Below, in pieces: positions 42,913-53,855 of a stretch of DNA of 64,000 nt (its first letter is position 1; each line of letters starts with the position of its first letter). This stretch comes from Adhaeribacter radiodurans (GTDB taxonomy: Bacteria; Bacteroidota; Bacteroidia; Cytophagales; Hymenobacteraceae). Location: positions 1,488,001-1,552,000 of the forward strand of contig NZ_CP055153.1 in assembly GCF_014075995.1 (NCBI RefSeq), read 5' to 3'. The notes under the pieces are model-generated. The model was given only the letters and a program-made list of their open reading frames with translations. It was not told where the DNA came from and made no database searches. The translations under genes were made by a program, and so were the position numbers.

Positions 42913-43655
42913 TTTCGGTTCATTAAATCGTTAATGGTGATTCCTGTTAGTTCTTCTAATATTAGGTATACTGTTTCGTACTTATTTTTAAATTGTTCTT
43001 GCGCCATGGCCGACTTGGTGTAGAAATCATTCACCACCATTAACTCATCCAGTTCAATCTGACCTAATTTGAATTTTTTATCAGCTAATTTTTTGTTTAT
43101 ATCCGCCGACTGCAAGGCATCTACCGATTGCTCCCAGGTAACTTTTGCTAAGCTTACTTCTTGGTAGGTTTTAATAACTAACTGCCTGATTTCTCTTTCT
43201 TCGGTTTTACGATCCGCTTCGGCTTGTTTTAAAGTTAATTCTTGCCGGTGCACTTCATACTTGCGGCCAAGTAGCTGGCCCAGAGAAAGGCTTAAATTTA
43301 TTCCGGAATTGTACTGTGCCCGGGCTGGTAAATTAAAAGCATTGATCTGACTCACTTGTTGGTCGCCGTTAACGGTATTTAACATGGTGCCATAACTGTA
43401 GCCTGACCCCACTGCTAGCCCGTTTAATATTTGTTTGCGGGATAGCCGAATATTGTCATAAGCAATTTGTTTGGCCGCGTCCAATTTTTCAATTTGGGCA
43501 GAGTACTTTACGGCCGCATCAATCAACAGCGGAAGCGCAATTTCCGGCGATTTGAAGAACTTTTCCTGCCAATCTGTTGGTTGGGGATTATTTTGCCCAA
43601 ATGCCAGCAGTATACTGGAAGAAAGAAGAAGAGATACTAATATTTTTTTCATCAA
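42909..43655 (-). CDS. Half-length TolC-like outer membrane protein
   Basis: A 248-residue protein with a signal peptide (MMKKILVSLLLSSSILLAFGQ) and one TolC-type repeat: a helical hairpin (ALPLLIDAAVKYSAQIEKLDAAKQIAYDNIRL; VIKTYQEVSLAKVTWEQSVDALQSADINKK) with a beta part (GYSYGTMLN, SGINLSLSLGQLLGR) between. Full TolC proteins carry two such repeats and are about 430-490 residues, so this one is half-size and would have to form a larger oligomer. Location between Wzz and the initiating transferase suggests it replaces the usual Wza exporter. It overlaps both neighbours by 4 bases. Confidence 0.8.
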   Translation of the reverse strand: MMKKILVSLLLSSSILLAFGQNNPQPTDWQEKFFKSPEIALPLLIDAAVKYSAQIEKLDAAKQIAYDNIRLSRKQILNGLAVGSGYSYGTMLNTVNGDQQVSQINAFNLPARAQYNSGINLSLSLGQLLGRKYEVHRQELTLKQAEADRKTEEREIRQLVIKTYQEVSLAKVTWEQSVDALQSADINKKLADKKFKLGQIELDELMVVNDFYTKSAMAQEQFKNKYETVYLILEELTGITINDLMNRK

Positions 43656-44821
43656 ACGTTTTCTTTTTGAAATAAAGCCGGAAAAGTTTTTAGAATTATT
43701 TGCAAGTCTTTTCTAAGGGAGAAATTTTTGGCGTATTCAATGTCCAACTCTTTGCGCTCTTCTTCCGACATATTTCCTCCTTTACCGCGTTTACTTACCT
43801 GCCAAAGGCCAGTAATTCCGGCAGGAGCAATAAATCTGGCGGCAAAATGATCTGTGGTAATTTTTTCAGCTTCGTACAAAGGCAATGGCCTGTTTCCGAC
43901 TATTGACATATCGCCACGCAATACATTATACAACTGCGGGAGCTCGTCCAGGCTGGTATTACGTAAAAACATGCCAATTTTAGTAATGCGGGGATCATTC
44001 GCTATTTTAATAAAAGCAGCTCCATTTTCGGCTTGTTTCGCAACCTTATATTGCTTTTCACAAATGGTTTTTCCCTGGCTATCAATAAGTGGGCTCTGGC
44101 AATTGGTACCGGCAGCCGTACAGGCCGCACATAAACTGGTAAATTGTTGAGCAGGCTCTTCTGCAATAGCAGTCTGATACTGATTTAAATTTTTCATGGA
44201 AGTCAGCATCTTGTCTGCATTTTGCCGCATAGACCTGAATTTCCAGAAGCGAAAAATACGATAACCAGTGCCAACCCGGTAAGAATAATAAAAAGCCGGT
44301 CCTTTAGACTCCAGCTTAACTAATAAAGCAACTAGCAGAAATAAAGGAGAAAGGCATAATAGGGCAGTAGCAGAAACCAGAATATCAAAAGTACGCTTAC
44401 CTATAGGATTTTGGTAGGCGTAAGGATTTTTCTGGGTTGCAGAAATAGCTGTTTTGCCGGTATCGGTTAATTGAAGTTGGGCGAGTAGTTTTTCTTTTTC
44501 TATTTTTTGCGAAAAGATATCCGTTACTCCTGCATCAACCAGCATCGATTGTAAACCCGATGAAACAGAATCGTTAGTTAACCAGAAAATGGGTTCTTTA
44601 ATTCCGATATCTTTTTTTAAGGTCCGGATTAAGTTTAAGCCTAGGGGCGAAGTAAGACTAGCCGAATCTAAGATGGCATCAAAGTATTCACCTTTGGCTA
44701 ACCACGACAAAAAATTGGTTGGATTATCAAAATGCTGAACATCTACATCTGCTGCAAATTCAGAAGTGAAGTCTTGAACTTCTTGTTCGTTAGAGCCGAG
44801 ACAAACTACTCTCTTTCTCAT
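43652..44821 (-). CDS. Initiating sugar transferase (phosphoglycosyl transferase) fused to a receiver-like domain
   Basis: A 389-residue protein. Residues 1-118 resemble a response-regulator receiver (Asp52 in DAILDSASL, Thr82 in WLTND, Lys106) but the acidic pair at the start is SNE rather than DD. Residues 139-389 form a WcaJ/WbaP-type phosphoglycosyl transferase: membrane hairpin KRTFDILVSATALLCLSPLF, KFRSM (194-198), and NTSLDELPQLYNVLRGDMSI with VGNRP. An insertion (about 205-268) has four cysteines, CAAC (231-234), Cys241 and Cys254, absent from most family members. It begins polysaccharide assembly by placing a sugar-phosphate on undecaprenyl phosphate. It lies 12 bases after a response regulator gene. 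Confidence 0.87.
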   Translation of the reverse strand: MRKRVVCLGSNEQEVQDFTSEFAADVDVQHFDNPTNFLSWLAKGEYFDAILDSASLTSPLGLNLIRTLKKDIGIKEPIFWLTNDSVSSGLQSMLVDAGVTDIFSQKIEKEKLLAQLQLTDTGKTAISATQKNPYAYQNPIGKRTFDILVSATALLCLSPLFLLVALLVKLESKGPAFYYSYRVGTGYRIFRFWKFRSMRQNADKMLTSMKNLNQYQTAIAEEPAQQFTSLCAACTAAGTNCQSPLIDSQGKTICEKQYKVAKQAENGAAFIKIANDPRITKIGMFLRNTSLDELPQLYNVLRGDMSIVGNRPLPLYEAEKITTDHFAARFIAPAGITGLWQVSKRGKGGNMSEEERKELDIEYAKNFSLRKDLQIILKTFPALFQKENV

Positions 44822-44833
44822 AGTAAAGATTAA

Positions 44834-45211
44834 TTAAGCTTTAATTCTTCTTAGTACATTTTTAATCCGGATATCCAATTCTTCCGGGTTAAAAGGTTTT
44901 ATCATGTAATCGTCGGCTCCTTGTTTTAAGCAGGTAATTTTGTTGCTGGTTTCATCTTTACCCGATAGCATGATTAAGGGAATATCACTAAACTTAGTAG
45001 TAGCACGTAATTGCTTAATAAAATCGAGGCCATTCATCAAGGGCATCTCAAAGTCGGCTACTATAGCATCTATGTGATGACCTTCCTGGAGCCAGGTCAT
45101 GGCTTCCTGTCCGTTTGACTTTACTTGTACTAAGTATTCTTTTGCGAAATAATGCTCTAAAATCAGACCTATAGATGGTTCATCGTCTACAATAAGTAAT
45201 CTTTTCTTCAT
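44834..45211 (-). CDS. Single-domain response regulator (CheY-like)
   Basis: A 125-residue receiver with acidic residues LIVDDEPS (8-10), phosphoacceptor Asp in VADFEMPLMNG (near 54), switch Thr/Ser LSGKDE (near 83) and Lys in YMIKPFNPEE (near 104). There is no output domain. It is the first gene of the polysaccharide assembly run and follows a 435-base AT-rich gap from the hybrid sensor gene on the same strand. With the receiver-like domain of the next gene it suggests that polymer synthesis is gated by phosphotransfer. Confidence 0.9.
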   Translation of the reverse strand: MKKRLLIVDDEPSIGLILEHYFAKEYLVQVKSNGQEAMTWLQEGHHIDAIVADFEMPLMNGLDFIKQLRATTKFSDIPLIMLSGKDETSNKITCLKQGADDYMIKPFNPEELDIRIKNVLRRIKA

Positions 45212-48483: not shown

Positions 48484-51400
48484 ATGATTAATAAAATCGA
48501 CCAAGAAGCTGGAGGGCTGAAGGTTACAAACATTGTGGGCTTAAAAACCCCCACCAAGAGAGAGTTGCTTATTCTCAAAATTCTTATTGGCGGAGGCCTC
48601 ATCAGCTTGGTTATATTTGCCCGCTGGTTATTAAGTGAGGAGCAAGTTGGCTATTTCCCTCTTTATGTTTCACTCTTACTTTCCTTAGGATATAAAATGT
48701 TGCGGGTACTCCACGAGTGGTACCATTACTGGGGTATCAAAACTACGCCGCTCCCCAAGCCTACCCGCACCTGGACCGTAGATATGCTGACCACCGCCGT
48801 GCCTGGTGAGCCCTTCGCGATGATTGAGCAAACCCTTAAAGCGATGAAAACAGTGCGTTACCCCCATACTACTTATCTCTGTGACGAAGGTAATGACCCG
48901 GCTTTAATTAAACTATGTCAGGAGTTAGAGGTGGTGCATGTTACCCGCTCTATTAAGATTAATGCCAAGGCCGGTAATATCAATAATGCGTTGCAGCAGG
49001 CTACCGGAGAACTGTGCGTTATTATGGACCCCGACCACATTCCGGTTCCTTCTTACTTAGACGAAGTAGTAGCTTATTTCGAAGACTCAGAATTAGGATA
49101 CGTGCAAATGGTACAAGCCTACTACAATGCCGAAGATAGCTTTTTTGCCCGGGGAGCCGCCCAACAGACTTATTTATTTTATGGCCCCATGATGCTGGGC
49201 ATGAATGGGCATGGTACGGTGCAGGCTATTGGCGCGAATTGTACCTTTCGCCGGGCAGCCTTAGATTCTATTGGCGGTCATGCTCCCGGTCTTTCCGAAG
49301 ACATGCATTCGGCCATGCAGTTGCACGCTAAAGGTTGGAAATCCGTTTATACACCCAAAATATTAACCCGGGGGCTCGTGCCAAATACGCTGGCTTCGTA
49401 TTTTAAACAGCAAATAAAATGGTCCCGTGGTACTTTTGATTTATTGGCTCATGTATACCCTCGGCTATTTAAAAATTTTACCTGGCGCCAGAAATTACAT
49501 TACTTATTGTTGCCCCTGCATTATGCTTTTGGCCTGATTGTTTTATTAGACATTTTAATTCCAGTAATTTCCTTATTACTGGGGCAAACTCCTGTTAATA
49601 TTGAATGGCATCAATTTTTCTGGGTACTACTCCCTTATCTAGGGTTTACTACCCTTATTCGGCAGTACGCTCAACGGTGGTTGCTGGAAGACCACGAAAA
49701 GGGTTTTCATATCTCCGGTGGAATATTGCTCTTTGCCAGTTGGTGGGTATTTTCTTTAGGATTAATCTATACAATTTTTAATATTAAAGTACCGTATATC
49801 GCTACCCCCAAAAACGATGAAGATCGTAACAACTGGTCTTTAAGTATGCCCAATATAATTGTATGCGGGTTGAATTTAGCGGTTATGGTATACGGCTTAT
49901 CGCGCGATTGGAGCCCTTATAGCTGGATGATGGCATCTTATGTAGGGCTAAACAGTTTGCTTTTAAGTGTTACAATTGTGGCAGCTCAACCCGTTTTGCT
50001 TAAGAAAGTAAAAATTTGGCTGCAGCCTTTTTCTATTACGCACTTGCTTTACCAACCATTAAAGTTAATACACCAGGTTATTTTACCAGATACTTACCGG
50101 CTTTTGCGGAAGGGAGCACCTGCCTTTGCTATTCTTCTTTTCTTAACCTGCAACAGCTTTATCCTGATGGATTATAATCCCAGCAAAGACGTAGAAGTAC
50201 TCAACGGACCGCAAACCAAAGCTACAGGTGGTTTTTATACCGGTATGTACCTGCCAGCCGGACAAGAAGAAAAAACCTTACCTATTGCCGATACTTTCCA
50301 GAAGCAATTAGGTAGTAACCTAAATATTCTTACAGTGCAGCAACCTTGGGAACCGGAGAATGCTGCCATTTTTCCGCAAACCTTATTGGACCGCATTGCC
50401 CAGCGTGGGGCCATTCCTCTTATTACCTGGAACCCGATTTATAATAAACCGGGAGAAAAATCAAATGAAACTAATGAAAATATTTTAATAGCAATTGCGG
50501 CCGGTAAGTATGATTCCTATATACAATCCTACGCGCGTCGTATTCAGCGGTATAATCATCCGATTTATATTCAGTTTGCTCCCGAAGCCGATAATTATAA
50601 GGATAGTTACAATCAACCTTTAAAAATTAGTCCGAAAGTATTTGTTGCGGCTTACCAGCATGTGGTGGCTACATTTGCTACCACCGGCGTCAATAATGTA
50701 AGTTGGATTTGGCACCCAGCCAGTCCTCAAAACATAGAAGCTTATTACCCGGGCGAGAACTACGTGGATTGGGTAGGGGTAACATGTTTAAATTACGGTA
50801 AGGCTGCCGAAGATGGCAAATGGCGCACCTTTGAAGAACTTTACCGGCCTTTTCGAAACGAAATACTCAAGTTGAACAAACCCGTTATACTCACCGAATT
50901 TGGTTCTACGCACTACGGGGGTAATGGGCAGGAATGGCTAGAATATTACCTGCCTTTAATTCCGAATTACTATCGGGAAATTCGCTCTTTGGTATTTTTT
51001 ACGAATAACCAAGATCAAAATTGGCCTGGTACCTGGCGTCCTAGCAGCCATGCTTTAGAAATGGATTGGACTATTAAAAACCCGAACCAAATAGCTAAGT
51101 TTTACCGGAAAATAAAACAAGAATCATTTATTTGGCAAAAGCCTACGTTGGAACAGAAAGCTTTACGACCTGATTTAGCCAAAACTTTCCGGAAAAACCA
51201 AGAAGGTTATTTAACGGGTAAAATGGGTCAGTATACTTTGTTAGTAAATAACCAGCCTTTTTATGTGAAGGGAGTCGCTTATAACCCCGGGCACGATTGG
51301 CGGGATGGTCATTATCCGCTTACCCGTCATCAACTTGAACAGGATTTTACTGCTATAAAAGCGATGGGAGCTAATACTATTCGTCGGTATAGCCCTAGTT

Positions 51401-52455
51401 TATACGATGATAATATTCTGACGATTGCCCAGGAAAACGATTTGAAAGTGCTTTACGGTTTCTGGTTCGACCCCCAAGTAGATTATTATAAGGATACGGT
51501 AAAGGTTAAGAAATACTTGCAAAAGGTAGAAGAAACCGTAAGTAAGTTTAAAGGGGCACCGGCTGTACTGGGTTGGTCAATAGGAAACGAAACGAGCAGT
51601 TTGCTTAAAAAACATTTCAGCCAACCTTACTTGAGCCTGAACCGAAAAGCCTACATGCACATGATTGAACTCATGGCTGAGCGCATCCACCAAATCGATC
51701 CTTCCAAGCCCGTTTTTACCTCCTTGGAACATTCGCGGCAGTTGCCCGGTGAATTGCTGGCTTATGACCAATTGGTTCCTTCGGTAGATGTAGTAGGAAT
51801 TAACTCGTATTACACGCAGCAAATTAGTAAATTACAACAAATAACGGCACAGTTTAACCCACATCGGCCTTATTTAATATCCGAATTTGGCCCGAGTGGG
51901 TATTGGGATCCTGAGTATTCGCAAACAGATAAAAATAGCTTATTAATAGAAGAGTCGAACGCCCAAAAAGCAGCTTTATATACGCAGGAATGGCAGCAAT
52001 TTATTCAGAAAAATAAAGGCCATAATATAGGAGGGGTTGCTTTTTGCTGGCGCGACCGGTTCGAAGGTTCAGCTACCTGGTTTGGATTAACCGATTTTCG
52101 CGGTCGTAAAAAGCCGGTGTACTATGCCTTGCAGGATACATGGAAAAATCAAGCACCTACTCCTATGCCTCAAGTGCGGATAGTGGGCCCATCCGGCTTT
52201 CTAATTCCTGAGACACCTTTTGAATTTACCGTAATCGGTGATATGGATAGTACTACTAAAGTAGAATGGCAGTTGTACAAGGACGACTACCTGGAAAAAA
52301 TGGAAATTTCAGAAAAAATCAATCAACCCAGTAGAGTGGTAATTACTTTACCCGAGCCAGGTGGCGCGTACCATCGCACTAATTACCGACTGTATGTTTA
52401 TGTGACGGATGGTAAAGGAAATGTGCTTACTGCCAGTAAATCCATTATAATGTAA
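48484..52455 (+). CDS. Processive GT2 polysaccharide synthase fused to two glycoside hydrolase-like domains
   Basis: A 1,323-residue single chain. Residues 30-540 are a cellulose/curdlan-synthase-like GT2: two N-terminal membrane helices (about 30-75), Asp134 (LCDEGND), DPDH (182-185), SED (271-273), QQIKWSRG (309-316), then about six membrane helices to about 505 and one more at about 547-563. Residues 575-870 are a GH26-like barrel outside the membrane, with Glu701 (QFAPEAD) and Glu805 (ILTEFGS) as clan-A acid/base and nucleophile. Residues 905-1210 are a second barrel, GH2/GH5-like, with Glu1036 (SIGNETS) and Glu1134 (LISEFGPSGYW), and a beta domain ends the chain. The gene is the first of a plus-strand pair. 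It could make a glycan at the membrane and trim or transfer it on the periplasmic side. Confidence 0.88.
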   Translation: MINKIDQEAGGLKVTNIVGLKTPTKRELLILKILIGGGLISLVIFARWLLSEEQVGYFPLYVSLLLSLGYKMLRVLHEWYHYWGIKTTPLPKPTRTWTVDMLTTAVPGEPFAMIEQTLKAMKTVRYPHTTYLCDEGNDPALIKLCQELEVVHVTRSIKINAKAGNINNALQQATGELCVIMDPDHIPVPSYLDEVVAYFEDSELGYVQMVQAYYNAEDSFFARGAAQQTYLFYGPMMLGMNGHGTVQAIGANCTFRRAALDSIGGHAPGLSEDMHSAMQLHAKGWKSVYTPKILTRGLVPNTLASYFKQQIKWSRGTFDLLAHVYPRLFKNFTWRQKLHYLLLPLHYAFGLIVLLDILIPVISLLLGQTPVNIEWHQFFWVLLPYLGFTTLIRQYAQRWLLEDHEKGFHISGGILLFASWWVFSLGLIYTIFNIKVPYIATPKNDEDRNNWSLSMPNIIVCGLNLAVMVYGLSRDWSPYSWMMASYVGLNSLLLSVTIVAAQPVLLKKVKIWLQPFSITHLLYQPLKLIHQVILPDTYRLLRKGAPAFAILLFLTCNSFILMDYNPSKDVEVLNGPQTKATGGFYTGMYLPAGQEEKTLPIADTFQKQLGSNLNILTVQQPWEPENAAIFPQTLLDRIAQRGAIPLITWNPIYNKPGEKSNETNENILIAIAAGKYDSYIQSYARRIQRYNHPIYIQFAPEADNYKDSYNQPLKISPKVFVAAYQHVVATFATTGVNNVSWIWHPASPQNIEAYYPGENYVDWVGVTCLNYGKAAEDGKWRTFEELYRPFRNEILKLNKPVILTEFGSTHYGGNGQEWLEYYLPLIPNYYREIRSLVFFTNNQDQNWPGTWRPSSHALEMDWTIKNPNQIAKFYRKIKQESFIWQKPTLEQKALRPDLAKTFRKNQEGYLTGKMGQYTLLVNNQPFYVKGVAYNPGHDWRDGHYPLTRHQLEQDFTAIKAMGANTIRRYSPSLYDDNILTIAQENDLKVLYGFWFDPQVDYYKDTVKVKKYLQKVEETVSKFKGAPAVLGWSIGNETSSLLKKHFSQPYLSLNRKAYMHMIELMAERIHQIDPSKPVFTSLEHSRQLPGELLAYDQLVPSVDVVGINSYYTQQISKLQQITAQFNPHRPYLISEFGPSGYWDPEYSQTDKNSLLIEESNAQKAALYTQEWQQFIQKNKGHNIGGVAFCWRDRFEGSATWFGLTDFRGRKKPVYYALQDTWKNQAPTPMPQVRIVGPSGFLIPETPFEFTVIGDMDSTTKVEWQLYKDDYLEKMEISEKINQPSRVVITLPEPGGAYHRTNYRLYVYVTDGKGNVLTASKSIIM

Positions 52456-52490
52456 GGGGTAAGTATAGGATGCTTTTTATTAATTACTTT

Positions 52491-53855
52491 ATGCTGCGTA
52501 GGAATCTATATTATTTACTTATTTGCTTTTTGCCCCTGATCGCCTGCAGTCGAAAACCTCAACTTAAGAATCACATGGGACCTCCGTACGTAGAGATACG
52601 GGAACAGAATGGGCAATATCAATTGTATCGTAACGGGATACCTTATTTTATAAAAGGGGCCTGTGTGTATAAAGACTTTCATTTACTAAAAGAAAGCGGC
52701 GGAAATTCCATTCGTTTATATAACGTAGATGCCGATAGTGCTTTAGTAATTTTAGATAAGGCTCAAAAAGATGGACTTACGGTAACTGTAGGGTTAAATG
52801 TACTACCAGCCGGAACTTTAGACTACAGCGATGATGAGGCAGTAGCGGCTCAACAACAAAAAATAAGGCAAGATGTGTTGAAGTTGAAAAATCATCCGGC
52901 CTTGCTCATGTGGGGAATTGGGAATGAATTAAGCTTTAAACTGGAATTCAAACGTCTAACTGAGCATTACCGTTTGTGGCGGGCGGTTAATGACATTGGT
53001 AAAATGATTCATGATGTGGATCCCAATCATCCTACTACCACTATGATTTCATCAGATGTAAAACCTTTAGTACTTATTAGTCTCCTGTGCGATGAAATAG
53101 ATATTTTATCTGTAAACATATTCGATAAAATGTCAGGTGTATTAAAATCTACAATTGATTGGGCCTGGCGAGGCCCTTACATTGCATCAGAATACGGTAC
53201 TCCTGGTTATTGGATTGCAGACCAAACGGATTGGTACGCTAAAGTAGAACCAACAAGTTATACTAAATCGCATAATATTCGAAAACAATACCAAGAGCTA
53301 TTTAAAGGTAATAGTAAATGCCTAGGATCTTATGTTTTCTTGTGGAGCCAGAAACAAGAATATACCACCACTTGGTTTAGTTTGTTTACGGAAACAGGCC
53401 AACCTACCGAAATGATTGATGCGTTACAGCATAATTGGATGAATGAATGGCCAGCGAATCGGGCTCCAAGTATTGCTTCACTGATCATTAATAACCCTAA
53501 AAATACAAAAAATGTATATTTAGAATCGGCATCTAAAAAGTTTAAAGCAGTTTTAAAAGCTTATGATCCCGAAAACGAGAATTTACAGCTAAATTGGGAG
53601 ATACATAAAGATAACGTAGAAATTTATTTTGATCCTACTCTGGCACAAAATAAACCCGAGGTTGTTGCTAGAGGTAACCTGAATTTTAAGAAGTTGCAAG
53701 AAAGTAAAGTAAAAACGACCTCTGCCACCTGGCAAAATTATCAATTAGAATTTCCTTCTCCAACCTATGAAGGACCTTATAGGTTATTTTTATATTTAAC
53801 CGATGAACATAATAAAGTAGCTACAGGTAATGTGGCTTTTTACGTAATGAACTAA
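52491..53855 (+). CDS. Glycoside hydrolase-like lipoprotein, related to the third domain of the preceding fusion
   Basis: The start at 52491 gives 454 residues with a lipoprotein signal (MLRRNLYYLLICFLPLIAC); an ATG at 52470 would add seven residues. A GH2/GH5-like barrel follows (about 45-345) with Glu146 (GIGNEL) and Glu234 (IASEYGTPGYW) as probable acid/base and nucleophile, then a beta domain (about 350-454). The barrel and the C-terminal domain match the last third of the fusion protein in order and motifs, so the two genes share a common origin. The gap to the fusion gene is 35 bases, so the genes form an operon. A role in editing or attaching the polymer at the outer membrane is inferred. 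Confidence 0.82.
   Translation: MLRRNLYYLLICFLPLIACSRKPQLKNHMGPPYVEIREQNGQYQLYRNGIPYFIKGACVYKDFHLLKESGGNSIRLYNVDADSALVILDKAQKDGLTVTVGLNVLPAGTLDYSDDEAVAAQQQKIRQDVLKLKNHPALLMWGIGNELSFKLEFKRLTEHYRLWRAVNDIGKMIHDVDPNHPTTTMISSDVKPLVLISLLCDEIDILSVNIFDKMSGVLKSTIDWAWRGPYIASEYGTPGYWIADQTDWYAKVEPTSYTKSHNIRKQYQELFKGNSKCLGSYVFLWSQKQEYTTTWFSLFTETGQPTEMIDALQHNWMNEWPANRAPSIASLIINNPKNTKNVYLESASKKFKAVLKAYDPENENLQLNWEIHKDNVEIYFDPTLAQNKPEVVARGNLNFKKLQESKVKTTSATWQNYQLEFPSPTYEGPYRLFLYLTDEHNKVATGNVAFYVMN

Follow-up and report, generated by a model that had tools for sequence, protein, structure and literature searches.

A three-part GT2-GH26-GH158 synthase with a conserved GH158 partner in Adhaeribacter radiodurans and other Bacteroidota, a candidate beta-glucan synthase

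The need of glycan synthases for hydrolases such as BcsZ, AlgL and PelA has long been a puzzle. It is raised within one polypeptide by a gene of Adhaeribacter radiodurans, lying in a stretch of 64,000 nucleotides (contig NZ_CP055153.1, positions 1,488,001 to 1,552,000) which is referred to here as the window. The gene is a single open reading frame (ORF) with an ATG start and no internal stops, and the antisense frame shown of the same interval carries many. An earlier note on this DNA had read it as a synthase of glycosyltransferase family 2 (GT2) joined to two different glycoside hydrolase (GH) barrels on the outside of the membrane, so that one chain would make, trim and maybe transfer a glycan. 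What does this chain make, and which of its hydrolase-like parts do the work? The answer to which we give a probability of roughly one half is that it makes a beta-glucan, probably one with 1,3 linkages, and that the tethered barrels and the product of an adjacent GH158 gene would process or steer this glucan as it emerges.

All of the motifs and glutamates named in the earlier note (DxD, SED, QxxKW, which reads QQIKW, and the pairs 701/805 and 1036/1134) were located in this ORF of 1,323 residues, in the contexts DPDH (182-185), FAPEADN (E701), TEFGSTH (E805), IGNETSS (E1036) and SEFGPSG (E1134). Pfam matches, all of which exceed their gathering scores, are to GT2, to GH26 and, in the last barrel, to GH2_C and GH72, and phmmer against PDB sequences returned BcsA (E 6e-37), GH158(Pro) (E 1e-25) and the lichenase CtLic26A (E 3e-22). 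The structure prediction and family assignment that the note had suggested place barrel 1 in GH26 and barrel 2, together with its C-terminal sandwich, as GH158-like; the three-part fusion with two different barrels of the clan GH-A type is upheld by Pfam, phmmer and structure alignment.

An AlphaFold2 (AF2) model of residues 1-870 (mean predicted local distance difference test score, pLDDT, 88.7; predicted template modelling score, pTM, 0.68; 56-row alignment) shows two N-terminal transmembrane (TM) helices, a GT-A domain, the interface and further TM helices, a last TM helix and barrel 1, in that order. A second model, of residues 560-1323, contains the two barrels and the C-terminal sandwich (mean pLDDT 85.4, pTM 0.87). 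The stretch 504-544, just ahead of the last TM helix, holds seven Lys or Arg residues against one Asp or Glu and by the positive-inside rule would be cytoplasmic, with the barrels outside. Both barrels are thus predicted to lie outside the inner membrane, as had been supposed, and cytoplasmic barrels were rejected on the model topology and the charge bias. The exact number of membrane crossings would depend on taking 410-431 as the interface helix of BcsA and 437-450 (VPYIATPK) as its gating loop.

The GT2 domain carries the D, D, D, QxxRW signature of processive GT2 beta-glycan synthases (D134, D182/D184, D273 and QQIKW). In the family alignment, residues D182, D184, D273, Q309, K312 and W313 are kept in 56/56 rows, so that Lys replaces the Arg of QxxRW throughout as well as in the window synthase. 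The model shows the GT-A fold together with helices of the channel and interface, and its top Foldseek matches are BcsA structures (4p00 first, E 1.6e-25). In the loop that matches the FxVTxK gating loop of BcsA, the T and K are retained and the F and V altered. No Pfam match to PilZ was found in the window synthase, where a TM helix and the barrels stand instead. The TIGR03030 (CelA/BcsA) model scores 166.7 bits, far under its curated cut-off of 699.1, and a cellulose synthase proper was rejected on this score.

Barrel 2 and its sandwich align to GH158(Pro) (9oro, VIA-align) over 369 residues with Z 38.7, a root-mean-square deviation (rmsd) of 2.5 and 29% identity, and a phmmer comparison of the barrel with GH158 gave E 7e-26. 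The GH158-like call comes from this sequence and fold comparison; the Pfam labels of the barrel are GH2_C and GH72. The members of GH158 that have been studied are endo-beta-1,3-glucanases, and the activity of BuGH158 requires N136, E137 and E220, being abolished when these are mutated (PMC7157763). These correspond to N1035, E1036 and E1134 of the synthase, and the Asn-Glu acid/base and Glu nucleophile of GH158 are both present. According to the titles of PDB entries, crystals of GH158(Pro) were soaked with laminaritetraose and with a mixed-linkage oligosaccharide.

Barrel 1 aligns to CtLic26A (2bv9, VIA-align) over 271 residues with Z 29.5, rmsd 2.4 and 25% identity, and scores 24.3 bits with PF02156 (GH26) against a cut-off of 20.2. 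A profile built from 16 barrel-1 sequences found CtLic26A at E 1e-42 and the next GH26 chains at just 6e-11, so by sequence barrel 1 is a GH26 domain closest by far to this lichenase. E701 and E805 line up with the Glu pair of CtLic26A in the HMMER alignment. The His that precedes the acid/base Glu in GH26, and which most relatives with both GH26 glutamates have within RFAHE, is not present in the window barrel 1, where Pro700 (FAPE) takes its place, and one congener (L006) carries E701Q. Among three congeners the ratio of nonsynonymous to synonymous rates (dN/dS, Nei-Gojobori) was 0.07-0.08 for GT2, 0.15-0.19 for barrel 1 and 0.05-0.06 for barrel 2, well under 1 in every domain, with dS above 1 and near saturation. 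From E701Q, Pro700 and these ratios, barrel 2 would seem to be the fused barrel that does the work in the window genus, and barrel 1 is under weaker constraint.

The earlier note had passed over the gene that follows, which by sequence is the invariant catalyst of the synthase loci. This partner begins 14 nucleotides downstream of the synthase, matches 9oro in phmmer at E 2.9e-65, shares 28% identity with barrel 2 and has its Glu pair intact. A GH158 partner adjoins the synthase in 84 of 91 loci, mostly within about 200 nucleotides and in some twenty loci overlapping it by 4 nucleotides, and both catalytic glutamates are present in all 86 of the 86 partner copies. Partner-like GH158 genes were also found in genomes without a long synthase match, so that a neighbour of this kind is not confined to the synthase system.

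According to the reading that we favour, the inner membrane holds a processive GT2 similar to cellulose synthase, which would polymerise a beta-glucan with 1,3 linkages (either a 1,3-glucan or a mixed 1,3;1,4-glucan) from UDP-glucose and extrude it through its own channel. The two TIM barrels, which follow the last TM helix in the same chain, would then meet the glucan in the periplasm. Barrel 2, intact here, may cut or re-join the emerging chain and so set its length or release it, and barrel 1 may bind or steer the chain, perhaps with little activity in the window lineage. The adjacent GH158 lipoprotein would be the core catalytic partner in trans. Computation shows the fusion, the topology, the folds and the conservation of residues and of the neighbour, and from there we infer the donor, the linkage and any cutting or transfer. 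That the barrels act on the polymer of the GT2 is suggested by their fusion, the adjacency of the genes and the compatible enzyme families.

The spread of the fusion, which the earlier note had proposed to examine, proved to be wide within one phylum, with the same ORF found in many Bacteroidota. Two further genomes of the genus hold full-length orthologues, with 84% and 80% identity. A genome scan yielded 441 relatives, the best 80 of which are all Bacteroidota by title, and strong synthase matches were found in 16 of the 345 genomes sampled from the class and in 15 of the 296 sampled from the phylum (the window genome being in both samples), or about 4-5% of the sampled Bacteroidota; several weaker matches in these samples are GT2 only. 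By the thresholds of this analysis, 42 ORFs have the GT2+GH26+GH158 architecture, 12 have GT2+GH158, 11 have GT2+GH26 and 27 have GT2 only, the last class including fragments and contig edges. In trees of the GT2 domain, whose root within the synthase family is not fixed, three-part members stand on most deep branches and the GT2-only Pontibacter members are nested with GT2+GH26 members, for which an ancient fusion with later losses would be the simplest reading. A broken copy was also seen (L016, G040:C1:8149573-8153473), matching over several frames with TAG and TAA stops, which represents either a pseudogene or sequencing errors.

The fate of the active sites bears on how far the fused barrels are to be regarded as enzymes. 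Among 41 members with both barrels, only 4 have both Glu pairs, 18 have only the GH26 pair, 13 only the GH158 pair and 6 neither, counts which vary with the alignment and the score thresholds. Mapped on the tree, changes in the GH26 pair number at least 10 and those in the GH158 pair 2. A test of independent pairs lent no support to a reciprocal loss between the active sites of the two barrels; since the GH158 pair changes just twice, the pattern of 18 against 13, striking as it looks, mostly reflects clade history. The supposition that the chain relies on two working hydrolases was not borne out, as fused barrels often lose one or both glutamates, the window barrel 1 has Pro700 and the invariant catalyst is the separate GH158 gene. 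It could be argued from this that the fused barrels are mainly non-catalytic guides, or pseudo-hydrolases, with all processing of the chain left to proteins that act in trans, namely the GH158 lipoprotein and, for some lineages, a separate double-GH26 protein, and that the Glu pairs seen here are relics or minor activities. Such an explanation also accords with the several Mucilaginibacter and Dyadobacter members that retain just one GH158-like barrel, catalytically dead, with the Pontibacter members of GT2 alone that lack fused barrels and have kept the partner, with the constancy of the partner Glu pair and with the double-GH26 neighbours, which likewise join a dead domain to an intact one. 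However, barrel 2 is the most constrained domain in the window genus and retains its Asn-Glu and Glu in full, and we regard barrels that are mainly guides as less likely than the favoured reading.

Several other points weigh against a beta-glucan synthase with a working barrel 2. That barrel is catalytically dead in many relatives, and membership of a GH family does not by itself fix the substrate. The linkage cannot be read from the GT2 domain, because of the low TIGR03030 score and because the reference sequences, a set without the curdlan synthase CrdS, sit on very long branches; an attempt to read the linkage type from the GT2 tree failed, with reference branches of 2-10 changes per column. 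In addition, the best E-value among plasmid-borne GT2s (5e-32) belongs to the synthase of rhizobial operons of the order uxs1-uxe/galE-GT2-DUF995-GH26, which resemble that for arabinose-containing polysaccharide (APS) and hold UDP-xylose/arabinose genes, and barrel 1 aligns to the GH26 of the operon with 27% identity (E 4e-21, a single comparison). Judged by sequence, a pentose-containing polymer is possible, and the barrels could be processing this or another hexose polymer in place of a beta-glucan. We consider this unlikely, as the recurrent neighbours at the Bacteroidota loci include no recognised family of UDP-xylose/arabinose genes, the rhizobial operons shown have no annotated GH158, a profile search puts barrel 1 very near CtLic26A and the tree does not confidently join ApsS to the window synthase family. 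The three domain types do exist as separate genes in some relatives, but an assembly or annotation artefact joining such genes was rejected as extremely improbable, since the same full-length ORF occurs across many independent assemblies of both named isolates and metagenome-assembled genomes.

A beta-glucan synthase with 1,3 linkages stays the preferred reading. It can be extended, tentatively and at odds that we put well below even, to a conserved system of glycan export in Bacteroidota, in which the barrels would be guides for the chain, free to retain catalysis or to lose it, the near-obligate GH158 lipoprotein the working hydrolase or transglycosylase, and the product a beta-1,3-containing glucan so far undescribed in the phylum. 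As natural variants keep, kill or drop each barrel while the active site of the GH158 neighbour stays intact, the question of why synthases need hydrolases becomes testable in culturable Bacteroidota. Such a natural series could separate the step that needs catalysis from a step that needs just a barrel to hold the chain. The features of the locus are listed in Table 1.

Table 1. Synthase gene, its domains and the partner gene, in window coordinates
Feature	Position	Strand	Basis
Three-part synthase, 1,323 residues	48484..52455	+	Single ORF; full-length orthologues L005, L006
TM helices 1 and 2, residues 25-49, 58-83	48556..48732	+	AF2 model helices, hydropathy peaks
Predicted cytoplasmic GT2 domain, residues ~87-332; D134, DxD 182/184, SED 271-273, QQIKW 309-313	48742..49479	+	Pfam, phmmer, Foldseek top BcsA 4p00
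Channel and interface helices 334-366, 375-399, 410-431, 451-474, 478-500; cytoplasmic 503-543; last TM helix 545-564 (predicted)	49483..50175	+	AF2 model; loop charge
Barrel 1, GH26-like, residues ~575-860; E701 acid/base, E805 nucleophile, Pro700	50206..51063	+	Sequence and structure alignment to CtLic26A 2bv9
Barrel 2, GH158-like, residues ~906-1225; N1035-E1036, E1134	51199..52158	+	Sequence and structure alignment to GH158(Pro) 9oro
C-terminal beta-sandwich, residues 1226-1323, common to GH158 structures	52159..52452	+	AF2 strands; alignment reaching the last residue of the model
Partner gene, lipoprotein-like GH158, 461 residues; E153, E241; lipobox LIAC-S	52470..53855	+	phmmer to 9oro; lipobox read in sequence

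A number of observations were also made on the partner and other neighbours. In Chitinophaga japonensis the pair of partner and synthase is complete and occurs twice, in tandem (L073:6621-16865). At L043:6423-8798 (- strand) the partner ORF was read as 791 residues, its open N-terminal extension overlapping a divergent synthase gene, which is probably a wrong start in the mechanical ORF call. The double GH26-like neighbour, of about 560 residues (in L084, L089, L097 and others), has a degenerate first domain and a second that always has both glutamates, and is split into two ORFs in L058. Strict complementarity between a fused GH26 and the separate double-GH26 gene was ruled out, several loci carrying both. 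An 808-residue Sulfatase (PF00884) protein directly follows the synthase at L026:11864-14287, in a cluster of 7 members in 6 loci, and may modify the polymer. On the reverse strand of the window (43652-45211) a single-domain response regulator gene lies directly before a Bac_transf initiating sugar transferase, the N-terminal ~140 residues of which resemble a degenerate receiver domain (a weak BLAST match, E 1e-5, in a single comparison). By the title of one paper (PMC12802240), such a regulator reportedly acts on a Bac_transf-type enzyme.

In comparison with known systems, the core of the synthase is that of BcsA, sharing the GT2 core fold, the D,D,D,Q(Q/R)xxW-type motif and the channel and interface helices; it differs from BcsA with BcsZ in its 28% identity, the Lys for Arg in QxxRW, the PilZ domain that was not found and the fusion of the hydrolase folds, and no bcs genes were present among the synthase neighbours examined. 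Other cellulose-synthase-like GT2 proteins, namely BgsA of rhizobia and RiGT2 of Romboutsia (PMC10374906), are able to make 1,3;1,4-beta-glucan. The BgsA-like protein of R. etli, however, has no fused GH and shares 25.7% identity with the window GT2, and the window protein differs from BgsA also in that PilZ was not found. Barrel 2 has the fold of BuGH158 and GH158(Pro) (PDB 6pal and 9oro), including the C-terminal sandwich and the Asn-Glu and Glu catalytic residues, but these are free enzymes, BuGH158 being catabolic and encoded within a beta-glucan utilisation locus. Likewise CtLic26A (PDB 2bv9, 2vi0) matches barrel 1 in its barrel fold and its Glu pair, but is a free enzyme with His before the acid/base Glu where the window protein has Pro.

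Two further systems to compare are the rhizobial APS operon and the 'Orphan' proteins of Pseudomonas. The former, to which loci L104, L105 and L107 were assigned by inference from gene order, links a GT2 synthase with GH26 and has a GT2 about 29-31% identical to that of the window over about 320-360 residues. Its GH26 is a separate gene, GH158 is not annotated and UDP-xylose/arabinose genes are present, whereas those inspected in the neighbourhood of the window synthase are genes of other kinds. The Orphan BcsA-like proteins, like the window protein, combine a cytoplasmic GT2 and a periplasmic clan GH-A barrel in one chain. Theirs is a single N-terminal GH17 domain, for which the window synthase gave no Pfam match, in contrast to the C-terminal GH26-like and GH158-like barrels and separate GH158 partner found here. 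One proposal for the Orphan proteins (GH17-GT2) is that they make beta-1,3-glucan, cut it and transfer it, and transglucosylation has been shown for their GH17 domains (PMC10237404). The three-part layout put forward in the earlier note thus stands, but its idea of one chain that makes, trims and transfers a glycan had been anticipated in what is proposed for these proteins. No description of a GT2-GH26-GH158 fusion was found in the open-licence PMC literature. The idea of tethering a periplasmic GH to a synthase is already known from the Pseudomonas proteins, and the APS operon pairs a GT2 with a separate GH26; what appears to be new is the GT2-GH26-GH158 layout itself, how widely it occurs in Bacteroidota, the GH158 partner that nearly always goes with it and the fact that the fused active sites have been lost repeatedly.

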